Positions 27,362 to 36,209 of a DNA stretch of 64,000 nucleotides are shown here, one piece after another. The stretch's first letter is position 1, and every line of letters begins with the position of its first letter. Position numbers and translations under genes: made by a program. The stretch is from an uncultured Bryobacterales bacterium (lineage in GTDB: Bacteria; Acidobacteriota; Terriglobia; Bryobacterales; UBA6623). Below the pieces are notes generated by a model that searched no databases, was not told where the DNA came from, and was given only the letters and a program-made list of their open reading frames with translations. The DNA is taken from assembly GCA_958295955.1 (NCBI GenBank), contig OY282420.1:3052435-3116434 (forward strand), in the 5' to 3' direction.

Positions 27362-28303
27362 CTAGCGAATCACGTCTCCTTCGACGTCGAGCAGGATGTT
27401 GGCGCAGAGGTCGTTGCCGAACGTTTCCCAGTCCAGGAAGCTCCAAACGACTTCCTTCTTGCGGTTCACCTCGATAAGCTGCGGATACTTGCCTCCGGCG
27501 TGCGTATTGGTGATTACGACGTTGCCGTTGGGCAGGATCTGCAATTGCGTGACCCAGAAGAGCTTGATGCCGGGCAATTCCTCGCGCTCGACGCTCCAGA
27601 CGATCTCGCCGCCGGGATTCACTTCGAGGACGCGGTTGTTGTTCCCGCCGCCGATCATCGTATTGCCGTTGGGCAGGCGGTAAGCCGAATAGACGTGAAT
27701 TCCGTGGCCCTGGTGCGTCGGCGTCGCCGGCCCGGTCAACTCCATGCGGTATTCCCAGACAACCTTGCCGTCCCGGTTGTATTCGCGGACCGCGCCATCG
27801 TTCTCATGGGTGACGAGGTAGGTTCCCTGCGGCGTCTTGCGCACCAGGCGCGTGTCGCGGTGGTGGTGGGGCTTGTCCACTTGGAGCGGCGTCTCGGCAT
27901 GAATCTTGCCCTTGCGGTCGACCTCGACAATGCGCCTGTTGCCGGTCTCGGCGATCATCGTCAGCCCGTTGTCGAAGCGCTCGAAGCCGTGAATCTCGAC
28001 TTGGCCGTCGTATGACCCGGAGGGCTTCGATTCCCATTTCCAGACGACATCCTTCTCGGGCGTGACCTCGACGATGACGTTCCTTGCCGCAGGCGCCAGA
28101 ACGTTGCCGTTTTTGAGCAAGTGCAGGTCGTGAGCTACGGCGCCGTTTTCCCAGGTCCAGTCCACCGAGCCGTCCGGGTTGACGACCGCGATACGGCGTT
28201 TGTCCTGGGCCATCACGCGGTGCGCGGTCGTGGCTGCAAGCGCAGCCGCGCCGGCCAAGGCAGGCAGTCCCGCGGCGGCTTGGAGAAACTGTCGACGATG
28301 CAT
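27362..28303 (-). CDS. Exported arylsulfotransferase-like beta-propeller protein
   Basis: The product has 313 residues. The start MHRRQFLQAAAGLPALAGAA is a twin-arginine-type signal. The mature part consists of repeated ~45-residue blades with G-N-V/T hallmarks: HDLHLLKNGNVLAPAARNVI, RFDNGLTMIAETGNRRIVEV, YRLPNGNTMIGGGNNNRVLE, LQILPNGNVVITNTHAGGKY. These resemble arylsulfotransferase (ASST) or PQQ-type propellers. The segment THQGHGIHVYSAY may contribute active-site histidines, but a true sulfotransferase His cannot be confirmed. Its promoter and first codons are duplicated at 29454-29565 as part of the tandem repeat. TATAAT lies 6 nt before the ATG (28310-28315). Confidence 0.7.
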   Translation of the reverse strand: MHRRQFLQAAAGLPALAGAAALAATTAHRVMAQDKRRIAVVNPDGSVDWTWENGAVAHDLHLLKNGNVLAPAARNVIVEVTPEKDVVWKWESKPSGSYDGQVEIHGFERFDNGLTMIAETGNRRIVEVDRKGKIHAETPLQVDKPHHHRDTRLVRKTPQGTYLVTHENDGAVREYNRDGKVVWEYRMELTGPATPTHQGHGIHVYSAYRLPNGNTMIGGGNNNRVLEVNPGGEIVWSVEREELPGIKLFWVTQLQILPNGNVVITNTHAGGKYPQLIEVNRKKEVVWSFLDWETFGNDLCANILLDVEGDVIR

Positions 28304-28329
28304 GTCGAGATTATAGAACTACGGGCCGC
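28218..28329 (+). repeat. Tandem-duplication arm: 5' end and promoter of the propeller gene, original copy
   Basis: This 112-bp stretch covers the first ~28 codons and the promoter of the minus-strand propeller gene. It recurs at 29454-29565 with a handful of mismatches. Its last 41 bp recur a third time at 31215-31255 (two mismatches to this copy). It marks the left edge of the 1.24-kb duplicated unit. Confidence 0.9.
28310..28315 (-). promoter_or_regulatory. -10 hexamer TATAAT adjacent to start codon
   Basis: Read on the minus strand, a perfect TATAAT sits 6 nt before the ATG at 28303 of the propeller gene, with no Shine-Dalgarno. In the two repeat copies (29550 and 31240 regions) the hexamer is changed to CATAAT. 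Confidence 0.6.
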
Positions 28330-28348: not shown

Positions 28349-29329
28349 TCAGTCGGTCAAATAGATTCCGGCGCCGACCAGCAGCGGCACGCCTTGCCCC
28401 GACACCCGCTTGACGAAGGCCGCCTTGCGGTGCCAGTTGCCCGTTTCGGGGTGGATCGCATGGTAGTAAATGTAGCTCTCGCCGAACGTCCCCGCTACGT
28501 CCACCATGTCCCGCCCGTTGAACCTCTCCTTGGGTTCGCGGCCCCACTCGACAACGGGCTCCCCGTTTATCCTGATCGGATGCCCTGAGAACAACTGCCT
28601 GCCCGTCATGTCCATGCCGAACACGTAAATCGAACCGGCGCTCCAGCGCGGATCGCTTTCCATCAGCAGCGTGGCGAAGTAGCCCTTCGATTCGACCTCC
28701 AGGGCGGCGCAACGGACGAACTCCTCCAGTGTTTCCAGCGACGGCTCGGCCGCCAGCGCCGCGGCGTTGACTTGCTCGGCGTAGCAGGTTCCGGGCAGGT
28801 CGCTGCTATAAATCCCCGAGCCGATCATGGCGGAGGTTCCTTCCCAGTCGATGCGTATCAGATAGGTAGCCTTGGGTTCGACTAGGGCGTCGGCCGGGTT
28901 GGGGAAACCGTAATAGACCCAAGCGCGGTCGGTGAATTCGAACGTACGATTCCACTCTTCGAGCAAGTCCGTGTCGAAGCGGTCGGTGAGATCGCCCCAA
29001 GGCGTCCCCGCGCGGCTCGGGTCGGCGCCGAAAACGAGGGGAGTGCGCGGATGCTCGCCGTCGGCGGCCGGATTCGTGACGAATATGTAGAACTGCCCGC
29101 TCTTCCAGCGCGCGTCTTCGTGAAAAGCGCGCCGGGCTTCCTCGAAGCCCATTTCCTGCACGTATTCGTAAGCGCACTGCACAAACGCCTCGAGATCGGT
29201 CGTAGAACGGATGGCGGAGGCGGAGACCGACTTCTCCGCGCAAGGGATGGGCGCCGCCGCGGAGGCTTGCGTCATGGTTCCCGCAAGCAGCAGAACTGCA
29301 AGGGGAGCAATCGCTTTCCAAATGCTCAT
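28349..29329 (-). CDS. Secreted double-Cache-domain protein, copy 1
   Basis: The product has 326 residues. A signal peptide (MSIWKAIAPLAVLLLAGTMT, cleavage near ASAAA) is followed by two tandem Cache-like modules. Module 1 (~45-175) has FVQCAYEYVQEMGFEEARRA, FHEDARWKSGQFYIFV and an IGSGIYSSD end. Module 2 (~190-326) has FVRCAALEVESKGYFATLLM and LVGAGIYLTD. Cache modules bind small ligands outside the cytoplasm, normally as the sensor half of chemoreceptors or kinases. Here no membrane or signalling domain is attached, so the protein is a free periplasmic ligand binder. Copy 2 (31275-32240) is nearly identical in module 2 but diverged in the middle of module 1. TACAAT lies 7 nt before the ATG. 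Confidence 0.8.
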   Translation of the reverse strand: MSIWKAIAPLAVLLLAGTMTQASAAAPIPCAEKSVSASAIRSTTDLEAFVQCAYEYVQEMGFEEARRAFHEDARWKSGQFYIFVTNPAADGEHPRTPLVFGADPSRAGTPWGDLTDRFDTDLLEEWNRTFEFTDRAWVYYGFPNPADALVEPKATYLIRIDWEGTSAMIGSGIYSSDLPGTCYAEQVNAAALAAEPSLETLEEFVRCAALEVESKGYFATLLMESDPRWSAGSIYVFGMDMTGRQLFSGHPIRINGEPVVEWGREPKERFNGRDMVDVAGTFGESYIYYHAIHPETGNWHRKAAFVKRVSGQGVPLLVGAGIYLTD

Positions 29330-29330
29330 G

Positions 29331-29454
29331 CAGGCGATTGTATTGCAATCCGCCGCGCCTTGTCAATGGGCCGGCAGCCTGGAACAGTGCGACAACTTAA
29401 CTGCGGACGCTATGGAAAATCGGTCGACGGAATCGCCGGACATTCCTCAAATCC
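29331..29454 (+). repeat. Tandem-duplication arm: sulfatase 5' end, truncated copy
   Basis: This stretch matches 32241-32363, the upstream region and first codons of the sulfatase at 32322. The two share the short gap after the Cache gene, the ATGGAAAATCGGTC start and the ACATTCCTCAAAT segment. A 1-nt insertion near 29430 shifts the frame after MENRST. The match stops abruptly at ~29454, where propeller-gene sequence begins; this is the duplication junction. Confidence 0.88.
29337..29342 (-). promoter_or_regulatory. -10-like hexamer TACAAT adjacent to start codon
   Basis: On the minus strand TACAAT lies 7 nt before the ATG of Cache copy 1. The same spacing and hexamer are kept at 32248-32253 before copy 2, so the promoter was duplicated with the gene. 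Confidence 0.5.
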
Positions 29455-29456
29455 GG
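29412..29456 (+). pseudogene. Truncated sulfatase gene start
   Basis: The ATG and the first ~6 codons (MENRST) equal the start of the sulfatase at 32322. A single extra base then changes the frame, and after ~29454 the sequence is unrelated to the sulfatase. It is a by-product of the tandem duplication and cannot encode an enzyme. Confidence 0.8.
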
Positions 29457-29565
29457 TGCGCGGTCGTGGCTGCAAGCGCAGCCGCGCCGGCCAAGGCGGG
29501 CAGTCCCGCGGCGGCCTGAAGAAACTGTCGACGATGCATGTCGAGATTATGGAGCTACGGGCCGC
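29454..29565 (+). repeat. Tandem-duplication arm: propeller-gene 5' end, second copy
   Basis: This stretch matches 28218-28329. Its last 41 bp (29525-29565) are identical to 31215-31255, so the foreign block 29566-31214 is bounded by perfect 41-bp direct repeats. Confidence 0.9.
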
Positions 29566-29682
29566 TAGGGGGGATTCGAGATGCGGCGCGGGCGGCTCCG
29601 GCTCCGCTTGATTGTCCATCAAGCCCAACTCCTGGGCGAAGTCCACCTCATCGACATCCCAACAATCCGCCGGCGAACTCAT
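29566..29682 (-). pseudogene. Truncated ORF downstream of the N12-type methylase fragment
   Basis: The ATG at 29682 overlaps the methylase stop (ATGA), as in a translationally coupled operon. The readable part is MSSPADCWDVDEVDFAQELG followed by an acidic, proline-rich stretch (~39 residues). It then runs into the 41-bp repeat, where the original sequence has been lost. The product is unknown. Its truncation fixes the left breakpoint of the foreign block at ~29566. Confidence 0.55.
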
Positions 29683-30952
29683 GCGCACAACTTCTGTTCC
29701 TTGATGCTCTTGCGCAAGAGGGCCATTTTCTGTTCTTCGTTCATGCTTTCGGGGTCGCCCCCGAATTTTCTCACCAGGCGGTTCAACTTCTCTTTTCGTT
29801 CGGCGGCGGAAAGTTGCTTCGGCTTGAACCGCGAAACCAGGTAAGACTTCACTTCCGCGGCAATCTCTTCGGGTGAAAGCCGGCTCTCTACGTTGTAGCC
29901 GCCTCCCCTATACATCGTCCCGGTCAACGTCTCTTTACCGATGATATGCACCCTCCCGGCTTTCACGACCTCGTTCACCCGGTAGGATAATTCGATCGTG
30001 CCCTTTTTCGATTTTGCATCTTTCTCGTAGGTCTCGCGCACCGTGTTCTTGAAGGGGAGGCTCAGCGACGTTTTCCCCGGCTGCTTTCGTCGGAAAACCA
30101 GCAGATCGGTGACCACTTCGGTCTTGGCGTTTTGCGCGAAGGCGTTACTCGGCAGCCGCACCACGGCTATCAGGTTGGCCAACTCCGCCATCCGCTTCCG
30201 CCCATTCGATGAGTTCGCATCGAGAGTGGAGTGCGTCGTAATCAAAAACGCCAGACCGCCCGGACGCACCGCCTGCAAGGTTTTGATAATCACCGCGTTG
30301 TCCAGCGAATACTGCCGTCTGCCCACCATCATGCGCGTCTTGCCGAAAGGGACGTTGCCCACCGCCGCATCGAAAGCGTCTTCCGCGTCGAAGTCTTTCA
30401 AGTCCTCGCAGCGCACTTGATCTTTCGGGTAGAGGTAGCTTGCAATCTGCGCGCTTAGCGGCTCGCGCTCGATCATCGTCATCTCGACGTCTTGCGCTTG
30501 CGGCGGAATCGATCCGGCAAAGATGCCCACGCCCGCCCCCGGCTCCAATATCCTGCCGCTCGCGACGCCCCCGGCGATGGCGCCTTCCCAGATCGCGCGC
30601 GCGATGTCCGGCGTCGTGTAGTGCGCATTCTGCATCGACAGCTTCGTGAAGAGGTAGCCGCCCCCCTTCGTTCGGTTCGCCAGGTCTTTGACCGCATGCT
30701 CCAGGTCAGGGTCAAAATCCGGCGACCGATCATCGAAGGCCGCTTTGATCCCTCCCGTGCCGCAGTATTTCGCCAATACCGCCTGTTGCTCGGCGGTAAG
30801 TTCCCCCGGCTGCAGATTCCGCGCGTTGATCTCGTTCAGGACTTCTACCGCAGCGCGCAAATTGCTCCGCGTCGAAGTCGCGTGCTCCCCCGGCTTGTAG
30901 GCGAAGCGCGCCCGCGGATCCCACTGCGGAACCTCCGGCTTGGGAGTCGGGG
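29679..30952 (-). pseudogene. N12-class adenine DNA methylase fragment, 5' end lost or frameshifted
   Basis: About 420 meaningful residues run from LTPTPKPEVPQWDPRARFAY to the stop at 29679. Motifs: HYTTPDIARAIWEGAI and GRILEPGAGVGIFAGSIP (S-adenosylmethionine site), then DAAVGNVPFGKTRMM, an N-x-P-F catalytic motif, and GLAFLITTHSTLDA. This is the methylase region of the very large methylase/helicase polyproteins of plasmids and phages. Only the methylase plus a short lysine-rich tail is left; no helicase follows. In this frame I see no ATG or GTG near the expected N-terminus. The upstream 83-residue ORF ends in the other frame at 30953, so a frameshift probably split one gene. Probably non-functional. 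Confidence 0.65.
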
Positions 30953-31204
30953 TCAGATCTCCGGGTTTTCCAGCGCCTTCCGCCGCTCGATCCGCAACTC
31001 CAGATCCTCCGGCTCCAGGTACTCGTCCGGCGCTTCCGCCATCTGTATCTCTCTGACCTGGGACTGCAGCGTGTTCACCAGCGCCGGCCCGTCCGCCCAC
31101 GGCACTTCGCCCCGCTGCACCCGCCGCGTCACTTCCGTCACGATGTCCCCCATCTGCTCCCGGTTCTCCGGTTGGTTCAGCCACTCTTCCATCGGTCTTG
31201 CCAT
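30953..31204 (-). CDS. 83-residue ORF, probable N-terminal part of the split methylase gene
   Basis: The sequence begins MARPMEEWLNQPENREQMGD and ends LELRIERRKALENPEI before a TGA at 30953-30955. Its amino-acid composition is balanced and helical, unlike the overlapping methylase-frame extension, which turns into Gly/Arg/Ala-rich filler. A +1/-1 shift near 30955 would fuse it to the methylase frame. It may instead be a genuine separate small gene whose stop abuts the methylase. The 41-bp repeat begins 10 bp upstream of its ATG, so its promoter is missing or hybrid. Confidence 0.45.
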   Translation of the reverse strand: MARPMEEWLNQPENREQMGDIVTEVTRRVQRGEVPWADGPALVNTLQSQVREIQMAEAPDEYLEPEDLELRIERRKALENPEI

Positions 31205-31214
31205 CTTCAGCCTC

Positions 31215-31255
31215 CTGTCGACGATGCATGTCGAGATTATGGAGCTACGGGCCGC
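31215..31255 (+). repeat. 41-bp direct repeat, right boundary of the foreign block
   Basis: It is identical over 41 bp to 29525-29565 and differs at two positions from 28289-28329. It contains the start region and -10 of the propeller gene but no propeller coding sequence follows. Repeats of this length are longer than usual insertion-sequence target duplications. Confidence 0.9.
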
Positions 31256-31274
31256 CGGGGGAAGAGCGGCGCGG

Positions 31275-32240
31275 TCAGTCGGTCAAATAGATTCCGGCGC
31301 CGACCAGCAGCGGCACGCCTTGCCCCGACACCCGCTTGACGAAGGCCGCCTTGCGGTGCCAGTTGCCCGTTTCGGGGTGGATCGCATGGTAGTAAATGTA
31401 GCTCTCGCCGAACGTCCCCGCTACGTCCACCATGTCCCGCCCGTTGAACCTCTCCTTGGGTTCGCGGCCCCACTCGACAACGGGCTCCCCGTTTATCCTG
31501 ATCGGATGCCCTGAGAACAACTGCCTGCCCGTCATGTCCATGCCGAACATGTAAATCGAACCGGCGCGCCAGCGCGGATCGCTTTCCATCAGCAGCGTGG
31601 CGAAGTAGCCCTTCGATTCGACCTCCAGGGCGGCGCAACGGACGAGCTCCTCCAGTTTTTCCAGCGACGGCTCGGCCGCCAGCGCCGCGGCGTTGACTTG
31701 CTCGGCGTAGCAGGTTCCGGGCAGGTCGCGTCTGTAGATCCCCGCGCCGATCACGGCATCGTTCCCGTCCCAGTCGATGCGCATCGTGTAGCTGGCCTTC
31801 GGCTCGGTCAGGTTGTCATCCGGGTTGTGGAACTCGTAATAGACCCAGCCGCGGTCGACAAGACCGAACACGCGATGGAATTCGTCGTTCAGGTCCGTGT
31901 CGAAGCCGTCGGTTAGGTCGTCCCAAGGCGTCCCTTCGCGGCTCGGAGCCGGAGGCTGAACGAGAGGGGTGTGCGTAGAAGGGTTCAGGACGAATATGTA
32001 GAACTGACCGCTTCTCCAGCGCGCATCTTCGTGAAAGGCTCGGTGGGCTTCTTCGGTACCCATTTCCTGCGCGTATTCGTAAGCGCACTGCACAAACGCC
32101 TCGAGATCGGCCGCAGAACGGATGGCGGCGGCGGAGACCGACTTTTCCGCGCAAGGGATGGGCGCCGCCGCGGGGGCTTGCGTCATGGTTCCCGCAAGCA
32201 GCAGAGCCGCAAGGGAAGCAATCGCTTGCCAAATGCTCAT
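31275..32240 (-). CDS. Secreted double-Cache-domain protein, copy 2
   Basis: The product has 321 residues, paralogous to 28349-29329 by tandem duplication. The signal peptide is MSIWQAIASLAALLLAGTMT. Residues 1-84 differ from copy 1 at about 11 positions and the second Cache module (last ~145 residues) at only four. The intervening ~90 residues (FVLNPSTHTPLVQPPAPSRE through GAGIYRRD) are heavily substituted and 5 residues shorter. The sharp boundaries suggest selection or gene conversion acting on the presumed ligand pocket of module 1. It is secreted and has no attached signalling domain. TACAAT lies 7 nt before the ATG. It is divergent from the sulfatase at 32322. Confidence 0.8.
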   Translation of the reverse strand: MSIWQAIASLAALLLAGTMTQAPAAAPIPCAEKSVSAAAIRSAADLEAFVQCAYEYAQEMGTEEAHRAFHEDARWRSGQFYIFVLNPSTHTPLVQPPAPSREGTPWDDLTDGFDTDLNDEFHRVFGLVDRGWVYYEFHNPDDNLTEPKASYTMRIDWDGNDAVIGAGIYRRDLPGTCYAEQVNAAALAAEPSLEKLEELVRCAALEVESKGYFATLLMESDPRWRAGSIYMFGMDMTGRQLFSGHPIRINGEPVVEWGREPKERFNGRDMVDVAGTFGESYIYYHAIHPETGNWHRKAAFVKRVSGQGVPLLVGAGIYLTD

Positions 32241-32363
32241 GTGGGCGATTGTATTGCAATCCGCCGCGCCTTGTCAATGGGCCGGCAGCCTGGAACAGTG
32301 CTACAACTAACTGAGGACGCTATGGAAAATCGGTCAACGGATCGCCGGACATTCCTCAAATCG
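32241..32363 (+). repeat. Tandem-duplication arm: sulfatase 5' end, intact copy
   Basis: It pairs with 29331-29454. Here the sequence continues into the full sulfatase gene, so this is the ancestral right edge of the duplicated unit. Confidence 0.88.
32248..32253 (-). promoter_or_regulatory. -10-like hexamer TACAAT before Cache copy 2
   Basis: On the minus strand TACAAT lies 7 nt before the ATG at 32240, the same arrangement as at copy 1. There is no Shine-Dalgarno. Confidence 0.5.
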
Positions 32364-33713
32364 GGGGCGGGGACGGTCGCTGCAAGTTTGCTCGGATGCT
32401 CTGCGCCGCGAGGAAGTAAGCAACCCAATATCGTCATCGTTATCGCCGACGACCTGGCTTGGCGCGACATCGGCTGCTACGGCGCGACGCAGGTCTCGAC
32501 GCCCCATATCGACAAGCTGGCCGCCGAGGGCATGCGCTTCGAGCGCGCGTTCACGGCCACGGCGATGTGCGCCCCGATGCGGCAGCAGATGTACACGGGG
32601 ATCTTTCCGGTGCGCAACGGCGCATACCCCAATCATTCGCAGTCGAAGCCGGGCGTGAAGAGCATCCCGCACTATTTCGAGCCGTTGGGTTACCGCGTGG
32701 CGCTGAGCGGCAAGAAACACTTCGGACCGCCGGAAAACTATCCGTTCGAGTTCCTCGGAGAGGGCAAGGACATCGACTACGCAGCGATCGACGAGTTCAT
32801 CGCGCGCGACCCCGAGCAACCGTACTTTCTCGTGGCCTGCTCCAACGAGCCGCATCTCCCCTGGAACCGCGGCGATGCGGCGAAGTTCGACTCGGCGGCG
32901 TTCGCGGTGCCGCCCTATCTGGTCGATACCCCCGAAACGCGGCAGGCGATGGCCGCCTATTATGCCGAAATCGAATATCTCGACGGACAGACCGGCCGCC
33001 TGATGGCGGCGGTGGAAAAATCGGGGCAGGCCGACAATACGATTTTCATTTTCTGCAGCGAGCAGGGCGTGCAGTTTCCGCACGGCAAATGGACCTGCTA
33101 CGACCTCGGTCTGCGCCAAGGCTGGATCGTTCGCTGGCCGGCGCGCGTCAAGGCGGGCTCGACGGCGAAGGCGATGGTCCAAGGCGTGGACGCTTTGCCG
33201 ACCTTGCTCGAAGCGGCGGGAGGCGACCCTGCCGTCCACGATTTCGACGGCAAGAGTTATCTCGCCGTGCTGGAAGGCGGCGCCGACCGGCACGCCGACT
33301 ATGCGTATGGGGCGCATACCACGCGGGGCATCATTCAAGGCAGCCGCTGCTACCCGGTGCGGTCGGTCCGCGACGAGCGGCACAAGTTGATCTGGAATAC
33401 CAACTACGCGACGAAGTTCCAAAACATTCTCACGGAATCGGACGGCTCGGGGTATTGGTCGAGTTGGGTGCGGAAGGCAAAGACCGACGCGGAGGCGGCG
33501 GCTCTCGTGAAGATGTATCAACAACGGCCGGAGTTCGAGTTTTACGATGTCGTTGCGGACCCGTTCGAGTTGACCAATCTTGTCGAGCAGCCGGAGCATG
33601 CCCAAAAGATTGCGCTCCTGAAGGCGAAGCTCGACGCCTGGATGGAGCAGCAGGGCGATAAGGGCAACGAAACCGAGCTGGCCGTCAAGGCGCACAAGAC
33701 CGGAATCGTATAG
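32322..33713 (+). CDS. Sulfatase, sulfamidase-like, twin-arginine exported
   Basis: The product has 463 residues. MENRSTDRRTFLKSGAGTVA is a Tat-type signal ending in a possible lipobox (LLGC). Sulfatase features: VIVIADDLAWRDIGCYG (metal site) and AMCAPMRQQMYTG with Cys83 as the formylglycine precursor in C-x-P-x-R. Met replaces the usual Ser of C-x-P-S-R. The distal metal motif is FCSEQGVQFPHGKWTCYD in place of SDNG...K. SEQG-FP-GKW resembles N-sulfoglucosamine sulfohydrolase-type members, so an N- or O-sulfated glycan is a plausible substrate. TACAAC and GAGGA before the ATG serve as promoter and ribosome-binding site. It is first in a four-gene co-directional secreted set. Confidence 0.85.
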   Translation: MENRSTDRRTFLKSGAGTVAASLLGCSAPRGSKQPNIVIVIADDLAWRDIGCYGATQVSTPHIDKLAAEGMRFERAFTATAMCAPMRQQMYTGIFPVRNGAYPNHSQSKPGVKSIPHYFEPLGYRVALSGKKHFGPPENYPFEFLGEGKDIDYAAIDEFIARDPEQPYFLVACSNEPHLPWNRGDAAKFDSAAFAVPPYLVDTPETRQAMAAYYAEIEYLDGQTGRLMAAVEKSGQADNTIFIFCSEQGVQFPHGKWTCYDLGLRQGWIVRWPARVKAGSTAKAMVQGVDALPTLLEAAGGDPAVHDFDGKSYLAVLEGGADRHADYAYGAHTTRGIIQGSRCYPVRSVRDERHKLIWNTNYATKFQNILTESDGSGYWSSWVRKAKTDAEAAALVKMYQQRPEFEFYDVVADPFELTNLVEQPEHAQKIALLKAKLDAWMEQQGDKGNETELAVKAHKTGIV

Positions 33714-33797
33714 ATGCGGCAGGCCGCGGCGTGGGCAAGGTTCCCGCAGGGGCGAAATTTGTTGACGCCGCGGCGGGTCGATGCGTATGCTGCCATT

Positions 33798-36209
33798 GTG
33801 CGCTTTGGGACGCTCATCTTGCTGTCCGCTTGGTTTGCGCCGCCGAGTTGGGCCGAGGTGTCTCTCGAGCCGCCCGAAATTCACTTGCAAGGACCGGGCG
33901 CAACGCAAACATTTCTCATTCGCGGCGGCAGCGGCTGCACGGTAGCGAGCAACGCTTCCAACATTGTCGGCGTTGACGGGAACCGTCTGCTCGGACGGCG
34001 CGCCGGCGCGGCGGAGCTTTCCGTGCGCTGCGCCGAGGGATCGAGCCGGGCCGCGGTGCGCGTGGGAGAGGGCGCTGCCGCCGTCGATATCGGTTTCGAG
34101 CGCGATTTGCTGTCGATCTTCACTACCAAGGGCTGCAACGGCTCGGCCTGTCACGGCTCGCCCGCCGGGCAGAACGGTTTCAAGCTGTCGCTCTACGGCT
34201 CCGACGCGAAAGCCGATCACGAGATGATCGTGCGTCGCGACAACGGCCGCCGGATTTCTCTGCAAGCGCCGGAAGCATCTCTGCTGCTGGCCAAGCCGTC
34301 CTTCCGCATAGCCCACGGCGGCGGTCAGCTCATGACTCCCGAGTCGGACGAATACCGCACCATTTTGAACTGGGTCCGCCAAGGCGCGGGCTATGGGTCG
34401 CCGGGCGTCCGCTTGGAACGGCTGGAGATGTATCCCGGCGAAAGCGTGCTCGCCGGCGCCGGGGCGGCGCAGCCGCTCGTCGTCATCGGCAGGCTCTCGG
34501 ACGGCTCGACGCGCGATATGTCGGACGAAGTGCGTTACGCCGTCAACGATGCCGCCGTCGTGTCCGCAGTCGAAGACGGCCGGGTGACCGCGCAGGGGCG
34601 GGGCCTGACCACGGTAACCGCGCGGGCGATGGGCAAGGTGGCCACGGCGCAGTTCATCGTGATCGACGAGGCCGCCGGGGACGGATACCGGGCGCTCCGC
34701 CCGAACAATTTCATCGACGAGCACGTTTTTCGCAAGCTGCGCGAAGTCAACATCGAGCCGTTCCCGTTGACTGCGGATCGAACCTTCGCGCGGCGCGTTT
34801 TCCTCGACGCGGCGGGCGTTTTACCGACGACCGACGAGGCCGAAAGTTTCGCGGCAAGCCGGGATCCGAACAAACGGTCGAAGCTGATCGACCGCCTGCT
34901 GGAGCGCGAGGAGTACGCGACGCACTGGTTGGTCAAATTCGAGGACTGGTTCCGCAATTCGCAGTACTATTCGCAGGGCCGCACCAACGGCTCGTACAAG
35001 CGCTGGCTGCACGACTTGATTCGCGGGGACAAGCCCTACGATGCGGCGGTGCGGGAAATGCTCACCGCGGTCGGGGACACGACCGTACGGCCGGCCGGGA
35101 ATTTCTGGCACCCGGCAATTGACTTCATGCTGAAAAAGTTCGAGATCGAGAAGGCCGTGCCGACGGTGACGCGCCTCTTTCTCGGACAGCGCATCGAATG
35201 CGCGCAGTGCCATAACCATCCGCTGGAAAACCTGACCCAGGACGACTTTTACGGCATGGCGGCGTTCCTGGCGCGGATGAAGGTCAAGCACGGCTACGGA
35301 CAGTACCGCCGCATCTGGTACAACGAGCGGCGCGGCGAAGCGGCGCACCCGCTGACGGGAAAGCCTGTCGCGCCCAAATTTCTGGACGGCGCGGCCGCGC
35401 ACATTCCGCCGGGCGTCGACCGCCGCGAAGTCTTGGCCGATTGGATTACGCGCGGCCGGAAGATGCAGTTCGCCCGCGCTACGGTCAACCGCGTCTGGTA
35501 CGAGTATTTCGGCCGCGGCATTGTCGAGCCGTTCGACGACTTCCGTTCGACGAACCGCGCGACCCATCCGCAACTGCTCGACGATCTGGCGCGGCTTTTC
35601 ATCGACTCCGGTTTTCGATTCAAGGCCGTCCACCGGGCGATCCTCAACTCGAAGACGTATCAACTCGGCGCGCACACTCCCGACCGCGCCGGCGGCGAGG
35701 ACGCGCTGGAGGAAATTCTGTTCGCGCGCTACGTCCCCCGCAAGCTGCCCGCCGAGGTCTTGCTCGACGCGATTTCGCAGGTGACCGGCAGCCCGGAGGA
35801 GTTTCGCGGCTATCCTCCGGGAACGTCTCCGAAAGAGTTGATCGCCAACATCGGGGCAACCTATTTTTTGACCACGTTCGGCCGGCCGCGGCGCGATGTC
35901 ATGGAAGCGCGAGCGAATGCCCCCTCGCTCGCGCAGGCGCTGCACATGATGAACGGCGACGTGCTGCAGCAAAGACTCGCCGCGCAAGACAACATACTCG
36001 GCGCCCTCATCGACCGCGGCTTGACCGATCGGGAAATCGTTCGCAAGCTCTACGTGCGCGCATATTCCGCCGCGCCGGATGAGCAGAAGAGCGCGGCGGT
36101 CGAACGCTACCTCGCGGCGGAACGGAACGCGGGACGGAGCCGCCGGCGGGGACTTGAGAACGTCTTGTGGGCTATGCTGAATGCGAAGGAGTTTCAGCTG
36201 AACCGCTGA
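33798..36209 (+). CDS. Ig-like/cytochrome/DUF1549-DUF1553 secreted protein
   Basis: The product has ~803 residues from the GTG at 33798, chosen because it gives a clean signal peptide (MRFGTLILLSAWFAPPSWA); the frame is open back to an ATG at 33714. Domains in order: Ig-like BIG2-type segment; a heme-site candidate GCNGSACHGSPAGQNGFKLS (C-x4-C-H, common in this subgroup); a second BIG2-like stretch; DUF1549 (~310-500) with CAQCHNHPLENLTQDDFYG (C-x2-C-H); and DUF1553 (~560-800) with MNAKEFQLNR at the end. These proteins are usually paired with DUF1501, as here, and are thought to act in periplasmic oxidation of polysaccharides or sugars. No enzymatic activity is established for the family. Confidence 0.82.
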   Translation: MRFGTLILLSAWFAPPSWAEVSLEPPEIHLQGPGATQTFLIRGGSGCTVASNASNIVGVDGNRLLGRRAGAAELSVRCAEGSSRAAVRVGEGAAAVDIGFERDLLSIFTTKGCNGSACHGSPAGQNGFKLSLYGSDAKADHEMIVRRDNGRRISLQAPEASLLLAKPSFRIAHGGGQLMTPESDEYRTILNWVRQGAGYGSPGVRLERLEMYPGESVLAGAGAAQPLVVIGRLSDGSTRDMSDEVRYAVNDAAVVSAVEDGRVTAQGRGLTTVTARAMGKVATAQFIVIDEAAGDGYRALRPNNFIDEHVFRKLREVNIEPFPLTADRTFARRVFLDAAGVLPTTDEAESFAASRDPNKRSKLIDRLLEREEYATHWLVKFEDWFRNSQYYSQGRTNGSYKRWLHDLIRGDKPYDAAVREMLTAVGDTTVRPAGNFWHPAIDFMLKKFEIEKAVPTVTRLFLGQRIECAQCHNHPLENLTQDDFYGMAAFLARMKVKHGYGQYRRIWYNERRGEAAHPLTGKPVAPKFLDGAAAHIPPGVDRREVLADWITRGRKMQFARATVNRVWYEYFGRGIVEPFDDFRSTNRATHPQLLDDLARLFIDSGFRFKAVHRAILNSKTYQLGAHTPDRAGGEDALEEILFARYVPRKLPAEVLLDAISQVTGSPEEFRGYPPGTSPKELIANIGATYFLTTFGRPRRDVMEARANAPSLAQALHMMNGDVLQQRLAAQDNILGALIDRGLTDREIVRKLYVRAYSAAPDEQKSAAVERYLAAERNAGRSRRRGLENVLWAMLNAKEFQLNR

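Follow-up and report, generated by a model that had tools for sequence, protein, structure and literature searches.

Mosaic divergence in the first Cache module of secreted double-Cache paralogues from an uncultured Bryobacterales bacterium

Described Cache sensors and the W family

Among the extracellular sensors of prokaryotes, Cache domains have been described as the largest superfamily (PMC4822843). The sensory regions of the dCache_1 chemoreceptors Tlp2, Tlp3 and Tlp4 of Campylobacter jejuni are about 30% identical and their signalling domains are identical, which was read as diversified ligand sensing (PMC9769880). Here we describe a family of double-Cache proteins of an uncultured Bryobacterales bacterium, starting from a neighbouring gene pair, W1 and W2, in a window of 64,000 nucleotides (contig OY282420.1, positions 3,052,435 to 3,116,434, forward strand). 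The two proteins are nearly identical in their second Cache module and strongly different in the middle of the first, and this bears on how Cache domains gain new ligands.

The open reading frames (ORFs) of W1 (copy 1, 326 amino acids, 28349..29329, minus strand) and W2 (copy 2, 321 amino acids, 31275..32240, minus strand) delimit the pair at 28349-32240; an interval given in an earlier sequence-only reading began inside W1 and ended inside W2. Both proteins score above the curated Pfam cut-offs for dCache_2 (36.5 bits for W1 and 45.7 bits for W2, cut-off 26.5) and sCache_2 (32.4 and 42.1 bits, cut-off 25). W1 starts with a hydrophobic stretch and, using a hydropathy window of 19 residues, strong hydrophobicity was found only in the N-terminal signal of all 14 family members. 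The chain of W1 and W2 ends with the second Cache, with no output domain after it. Neither protein has the transmembrane segments and cytoplasmic output domain of a membrane chemoreceptor or sensor kinase. In each protein a pair of cysteines stands at the start of either module, four in all, and these could form disulphides.

The dCache_2 family (PF08269) has been described as a duplication of sCache_2 (PMC4822843), and W1 and W2, which match its profile above the cut-off, likewise consist of two homologous modules. Unlike the dCache_2 membrane receptors, members of the W family are stand-alone secreted proteins or are fused to SBP_bac_3 or SBP_bac_5 domains (in the paralogue A1 and in relatives). 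As in Tlp2, Tlp3 and Tlp4, the paralogues combine a uniform part with a strongly different Cache sensory part. However, those are membrane receptors that have their signalling domain in common, whereas members of the W family are soluble and secreted and have the second Cache in common; uniform and variable parts meet within the double Cache, and the genome gave no match to a methyl-accepting chemotaxis protein (MCP) domain. The first module shares the fold of the sCache_2 carboxylate sensors PscD (5g4y) and Adeh_3718 (4k08), with Z scores of 13.6-13.8, and also the carboxylate anchors Tyr90, Tyr143 and Lys156 (PMC5062169). Unlike these sensors, the W family lacks a membrane anchor and a signalling domain, its modules are paired, and His103 is replaced by Phe or Gln.

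In general outline, a homogenised scaffold that carries an exchanged specificity block also resembles restriction specificity subunits and biosynthetic assembly lines. In these systems concerted evolution is accompanied by modular exchange. Cache modules, gene conversion and the exchange of specificity blocks are already known, and what appears to be new is that they occur together in stand-alone secreted double-Cache proteins. In the part of the open-access literature that was searched, seen mostly as titles and the beginnings of abstracts, no description of the W-type family or of such a block pattern in stand-alone Cache proteins was found.

Mosaic divergence in the W pair and its recurrence

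The sequence-only reading had noted about eleven differences in the first 84 residues, four in the last ~145, and a heavily replaced middle of about 90 residues with a change in length. Alignment bears this out, with 11/84 differing residues in the first part, 35/87 plus a 5-residue gap in the middle, and 4/150 in the last part. The divergent middle comprises residues 85-176 of W1 (28802..29077, minus strand) and 85-171 of W2 (31728..31988, minus strand), and reaches from the end of strand 1 to just past strand 5 of the first Cache, the structure elements being taken from a model of W2. On its one side lie the second modules, homogenised between W1 (28352..28801, minus strand) and W2 (31278..31727, minus strand), with 4/453 differing bases over 28349-28801. 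On the other side lie the signal peptide and N-terminal helices (29084..29329 in W1, minus strand), which are of intermediate divergence (22/246 bases). In the middle, 75/267 bases differ over 28802-29083.

Silent sites follow the same pattern. By codon counting, synonymous differences amount to about 9.5/61 in the N-terminal part, 28.5/64 in the middle and 0/112 in the last part, and the ratio of nonsynonymous to synonymous divergence (dN/dS) of the middle is 0.42. When only synonymous differences were considered, the top segment of high divergence was W1 residues 61-175, which contains 38 of the 40 codons with such a difference; with only nonsynonymous differences it was residues 85-178. Neither segment was equalled in 300 permutations each. 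The sequence-only reading had named uniform silent and replacement divergence as the outcome that would speak against its account. Divergence is indeed not uniform, but the silent sites share the mosaic, which points to recombination and not to selection on replacements. Of the three causes it had offered, conversion of the rest of the gene and exchange of a cassette therefore hold up, while diversifying selection does not. Given the same mosaic at silent sites and a dN/dS of 0.42 in the middle, the W1/W2 mosaic is the product of recombination, and positive selection was set aside as its cause.

A search of the genome with W2 yielded 14 paralogues, namely the W pair, array A (five tandem genes, C1:3210767-3215845), array B (five genes, C1:295830-300810) and two single genes. 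The same mosaic is present in both five-gene arrays and in related genomes. Within A2-A5, and likewise within B, identity of the second modules is 92-99%, and in many of the same pairs the middle is 40-56% identical, which is the level seen between clusters. A1, whose solute-binding-like end was trimmed before alignment, is an exception to the near-uniformity of its array, with a second module 79% identical to those of the other array A genes. The clearest case is A3 versus A4, which differ in one block of about 300 bases over the first Cache pocket and are near-identical elsewhere: mismatches per 60 bases are 1, 1, 3, 0, 1 and 2 before the block, 28, 21, 18, 8 (plus a gap of 27) and 22 in it, and 4, 2, 1, 0, 0, 0, 0 and 2 after it. 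In some pairs, such as A2/A4 and B2/B3, the block is shared and there is little divergence throughout. Among the 44 within-genome pairs examined, which share ancestry and are not independent, 15 have their two change-points at W1 residues 77-91 and 159-181; the remaining pairs have a single border there or a block that does not differ. In the other paralogue sets the dN/dS of the middle is 0.36-0.64.

Relatives were found in at least 15 of the 100 genomes searched as such (own genome included), and close matches are from Bryobacterales and Acidobacteria metagenome-assembled genomes. In a sample of the phylum, 6 of 396 genomes matched at E 1e-15: the own genome, four of genus g77 (another family) and one weak match. 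The fetched loci are a selection from the matches listed. After removal of repeated or contained units, the comparison set went from 84 units to 59 from other genomes, which together with the 14 own units makes 73. Six rows were removed from the trees (one duplicate, three partial copies, and L047 and L048, which are the same sequences as G9f and G5d); for the grouping of the g77 arrays L049, which lies on the same contig as G123, was removed as well.

The mosaic also occurs between paralogues of two g6 genomes (G005 and G009), mostly on separate contigs; G5c and G5d, for example, are 45% identical in the middle and 93% in the second module. In the tree of second modules, W, A2-A5 and B each form a clade with 99-100% support. 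The three second modules of the three-gene array L049 group together, and each of its middles joins a different type from other genomes; a single clade of the L049 middles was rejected by the approximately unbiased (AU) test (p-AU 0.0013). Block types are common to two families in the tree. Between orthologues of different species the middle has a dN of 0.032-0.033 and a dN/dS of 0.12-0.21, which is about the level of the second module. Between paralogues within a genome, dN of the middle is 0.28-0.37 in g77, g6, W and B, and 0.22 in A2-A5. As the middles of orthologues are conserved and those of paralogues divergent, the middle is a set of stable types and not a fast-evolving region. The dS of second modules between paralogues is 0-0.13 in W, A2-A5 and B, 0.29 in g6 (near the 0.24 between orthologues) and 0.61 in g77 (above the 0.42 between orthologues), so that homogenisation appears to be recent in the own genome; in g6 it would be older, and in g77 either old or weak.

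Pocket, origin of the block and alternative explanations

A predicted model of W2 shows two Cache modules. On this model the variable block begins where the first strand of module 1 ends and stops just past the last strand of that module, and the long helices lie outside. Foldseek with the whole model returned mostly tandems of PAS domains with poor superposition, and it was set aside for VIA-align, which fits single modules. With VIA-align, module 1 has a Cache fold and is nearest to 4k08 (Z 13.8, root-mean-square deviation (rmsd) 2.9 over 126 residues) and 5g4y (Z 13.6, rmsd 2.8 over 125). The residues of the propionate pocket of PscD, including Tyr90, Tyr143 and Lys156, were taken from PMC5062169. 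These three anchors are kept in W1 and W2, and in 12, 13 and 13 of the 14 own members, respectively, and since they are kept, the ligands are probably small carboxylates. Other pocket positions in W1 and W2 are Thr/Leu at 94, Phe/Gln at 103, Leu/Asn at 126 and Trp/Phe at 129, with Phe in both at 145. A histidine equivalent to 103 was shown to distinguish sCache_2 sensors of pyruvate from those of lactate (PMC12415202); here it is found in 1 of the 14 own units and 2 of the 59 others. In the second module the mapped pocket positions are identical across the 14 genes except for position 94. The earlier idea that the variable segment is the pocket of the first Cache thus stands in outline, given its extent on the model and the differing pocket positions, but variation is only weakly enriched at the pocket. 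A difference in ligand specificity between W1 and W2 is plausible.

The surroundings of the pair record its history. The duplicated unit reaches from within the start of a beta-propeller-like gene (27362-28303) to within the start of a sulfatase gene (from 32322), and truncated copies of both gene starts adjoin at 29412-29565. The sulfatase remnant, a copy of 32322 onward beside W1 and a marker of tandem duplication, is located at 29412..29453 (plus strand; repeat families D4 and D5), and the copy of the beta-propeller-like gene start and spacer (28218-28329), the other edge of the unit, at 29454..29565 (repeat family D3, 96%, 5/112 bases differ). Along the unit, 5/60 bases differ in the 3' spacer, 4/453 in the second module, 75/267 in the middle, 22/246 in the N-terminal part and 5/122 in the 5' spacer and sulfatase remnant. 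The latter should be near neutral and yet are far less diverged than the silent sites of the middle (5/122 versus about 28/64, Fisher 6e-11). The middle is therefore older than the flanks record, and either the block was replaced or conversion renewed both sides.

We consider it likely that W1 and W2 belong to a secreted double-Cache family with a shared second module and a few older, specialised first modules, which are shuffled and held apart against gene conversion. Three observations underlie this view: silent sites show the mosaic, other clusters and genomes have it in the same place relative to the domains, and block types are conserved from species to species. Each member would combine the common second Cache and a conserved N-terminal helix with one of several old, stable pocket types of the first Cache. 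The W pair would have been born by tandem duplication, after which conversion between the copies would have made the second modules identical. The pocket block would predate the duplication that the flanks record, either because one copy received the block of a paralogue or because conversion renewed both sides. The blocks may confer different ligand specificity, with the second module as a common interface or binding a common ligand, and selection for distinct pockets may spare the block from conversion.

Several results weigh against this explanation. The model of W2 has a modest mean predicted local distance difference test (pLDDT) score of 71. Although 4 of the 5 non-anchor pocket positions differ between W1 and W2, P is about 0.08 given the overall divergence of the block, and enrichment of variation at pocket positions is weak (0.042 for the own 14 units, 0.16 for all 73). 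The nearest sequence to the A3 block is W2 at 60%, with none closer in the 17 other genomes searched, and an external donor was rejected on these grounds. In the tree of middles W1 and W2 are mutually nearest (83/92, not starred), and a single middle clade was not rejected for B (p-AU 0.17) or A2-A5 (0.076); import from outside the cluster is thus not established for W. Second modules of the g77 arrays group by array position and not by genome, which means that homogenisation in them is old or slow. In multi-unit fusions of genus g5 the pattern is often reversed, with more divergence in the C-terminal part than in the middle, and the mosaic rule is thus not universal in the family.

Conversion limited by homology might also leave such a mosaic with no functional meaning, if similar parts of the genes convert and a middle that diverged by chance has become too different to do so. 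Such a process would suffice for the mosaic, and it agrees with the dN/dS of paralogue middles, which stays under 1 and, in comparisons between clusters, exceeds that of the second module only moderately (0.51 versus 0.43 for W-A, 0.49 versus 0.41 for W-B). Chance divergence does not, however, readily account for block types that are conserved between species and common to two families, for edges that recur near the same domain borders, for carboxylate anchors kept in nearly all members, or for the A3 block, whose near-identical flanks on both sides mean that it moved or survived as a unit. We thus regard this explanation as unlikely. Recent diversifying selection on the pocket after duplication would concentrate replacements in the middle and at the positions that shape the pocket, as is seen, and pairwise averages leave room for a short episode at few sites; but silent divergence is concentrated there too, the dN/dS is 0.42 and the middles of orthologues are conserved, which makes this improbable.

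Replacement of a block at a fixed position of the gene is also what a dedicated diversity-generating system would produce, by reverse-transcriptase mutagenesis or from a silent cassette store. There is very little chance of this: no RVT_1 match was found in the genome, in a search that was positive in 3 of 14 control genomes, and the block as a query matches only the first module of each of the 14 paralogues and, at a weaker level, their second modules, with no orphan cassettes. Both a diversity-generating retroelement and a silent store were rejected accordingly. It is just as hard to credit an assembly artefact or mis-joined repeats. Near-identical repeats do assemble poorly and the genome consists of three contigs, but both genes are open with borders that fit the domains, the unit edges and the insert between the copies are coherent, and the pattern is the same in separately assembled genomes. 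A family with shuffled, specialised first modules thus remains the preferred explanation, and A3/A4 and W1/W2 are natural pairs that differ in little but the pocket block, so that its share in specificity is directly measurable.

Possible function, fusions and neighbouring genes

No MCPsignal domain was found in the genome, and a role as chemoreceptor was rejected on this basis. This absence, together with the solute-binding fusions of A1 and relatives, leads us to prefer a role in capturing or presenting small molecules outside the cytoplasm, in which module 1 would provide specificity and module 2 a common interface. Stand-alone double-Cache proteins and solute-binding fusions, in a genome in which no chemoreceptors were detected, point to a use of Cache beyond membrane signalling. 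More tentatively, the family might be a library of exchangeable pocket blocks on a common secreted carrier, in which module 1 captures different small molecules and module 2, near-identical inside each cluster, docks to one shared partner or transporter; the docking is suggested by the fusions in relatives, but we hold the whole scheme to be rather doubtful. If true, a domain known mainly as receptor input would here serve in a secreted capture system whose specificity can be interchanged.

As to the fusions themselves, the double-Cache unit is joined to an SBP_bac_3-like domain, below the cut-off, in A1 (L015:4769-6769, own genome) and L075 (g6 genome), and to a strong SBP_bac_5 domain in L091, L078, L054 and L046. 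Inspection by eye of start-to-stop ORFs at L098-L102 and L046, which include three SBP_bac_5-fusion loci (L098, L100 and L046), revealed no obvious ATP-binding cassette (ABC) permease genes beside the fused proteins, although no profile search of the neighbours was made; an ABC operon partner was rejected on this basis. L046 is labelled Candidatus Aminicenantes, but its match position is nearly the same and its frame length the same as in G395:C406, from the phylum of the window, and the label may be wrong. L073 and L074 of genus g5 encode long proteins that contain three double-Cache-like units and occur as inverted gene pairs. The first unit is degenerate, and here the last part is the more divergent one.

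The insert between the two copies (29566..31214, minus strand) is single-copy in the genome, has direct repeats of about 41 bases on either side and contains a fragment resembling an N6-methyltransferase (N6_Mtase E 0.003, below the cut-off); the protein is truncated. The gene after the sulfatase encodes a DUF1549/DUF1553 (PSCyt2/PSD1) protein that has a Big_2-like stretch (window 32322-36209). Proteins of this kind are best known from planctomycetes.

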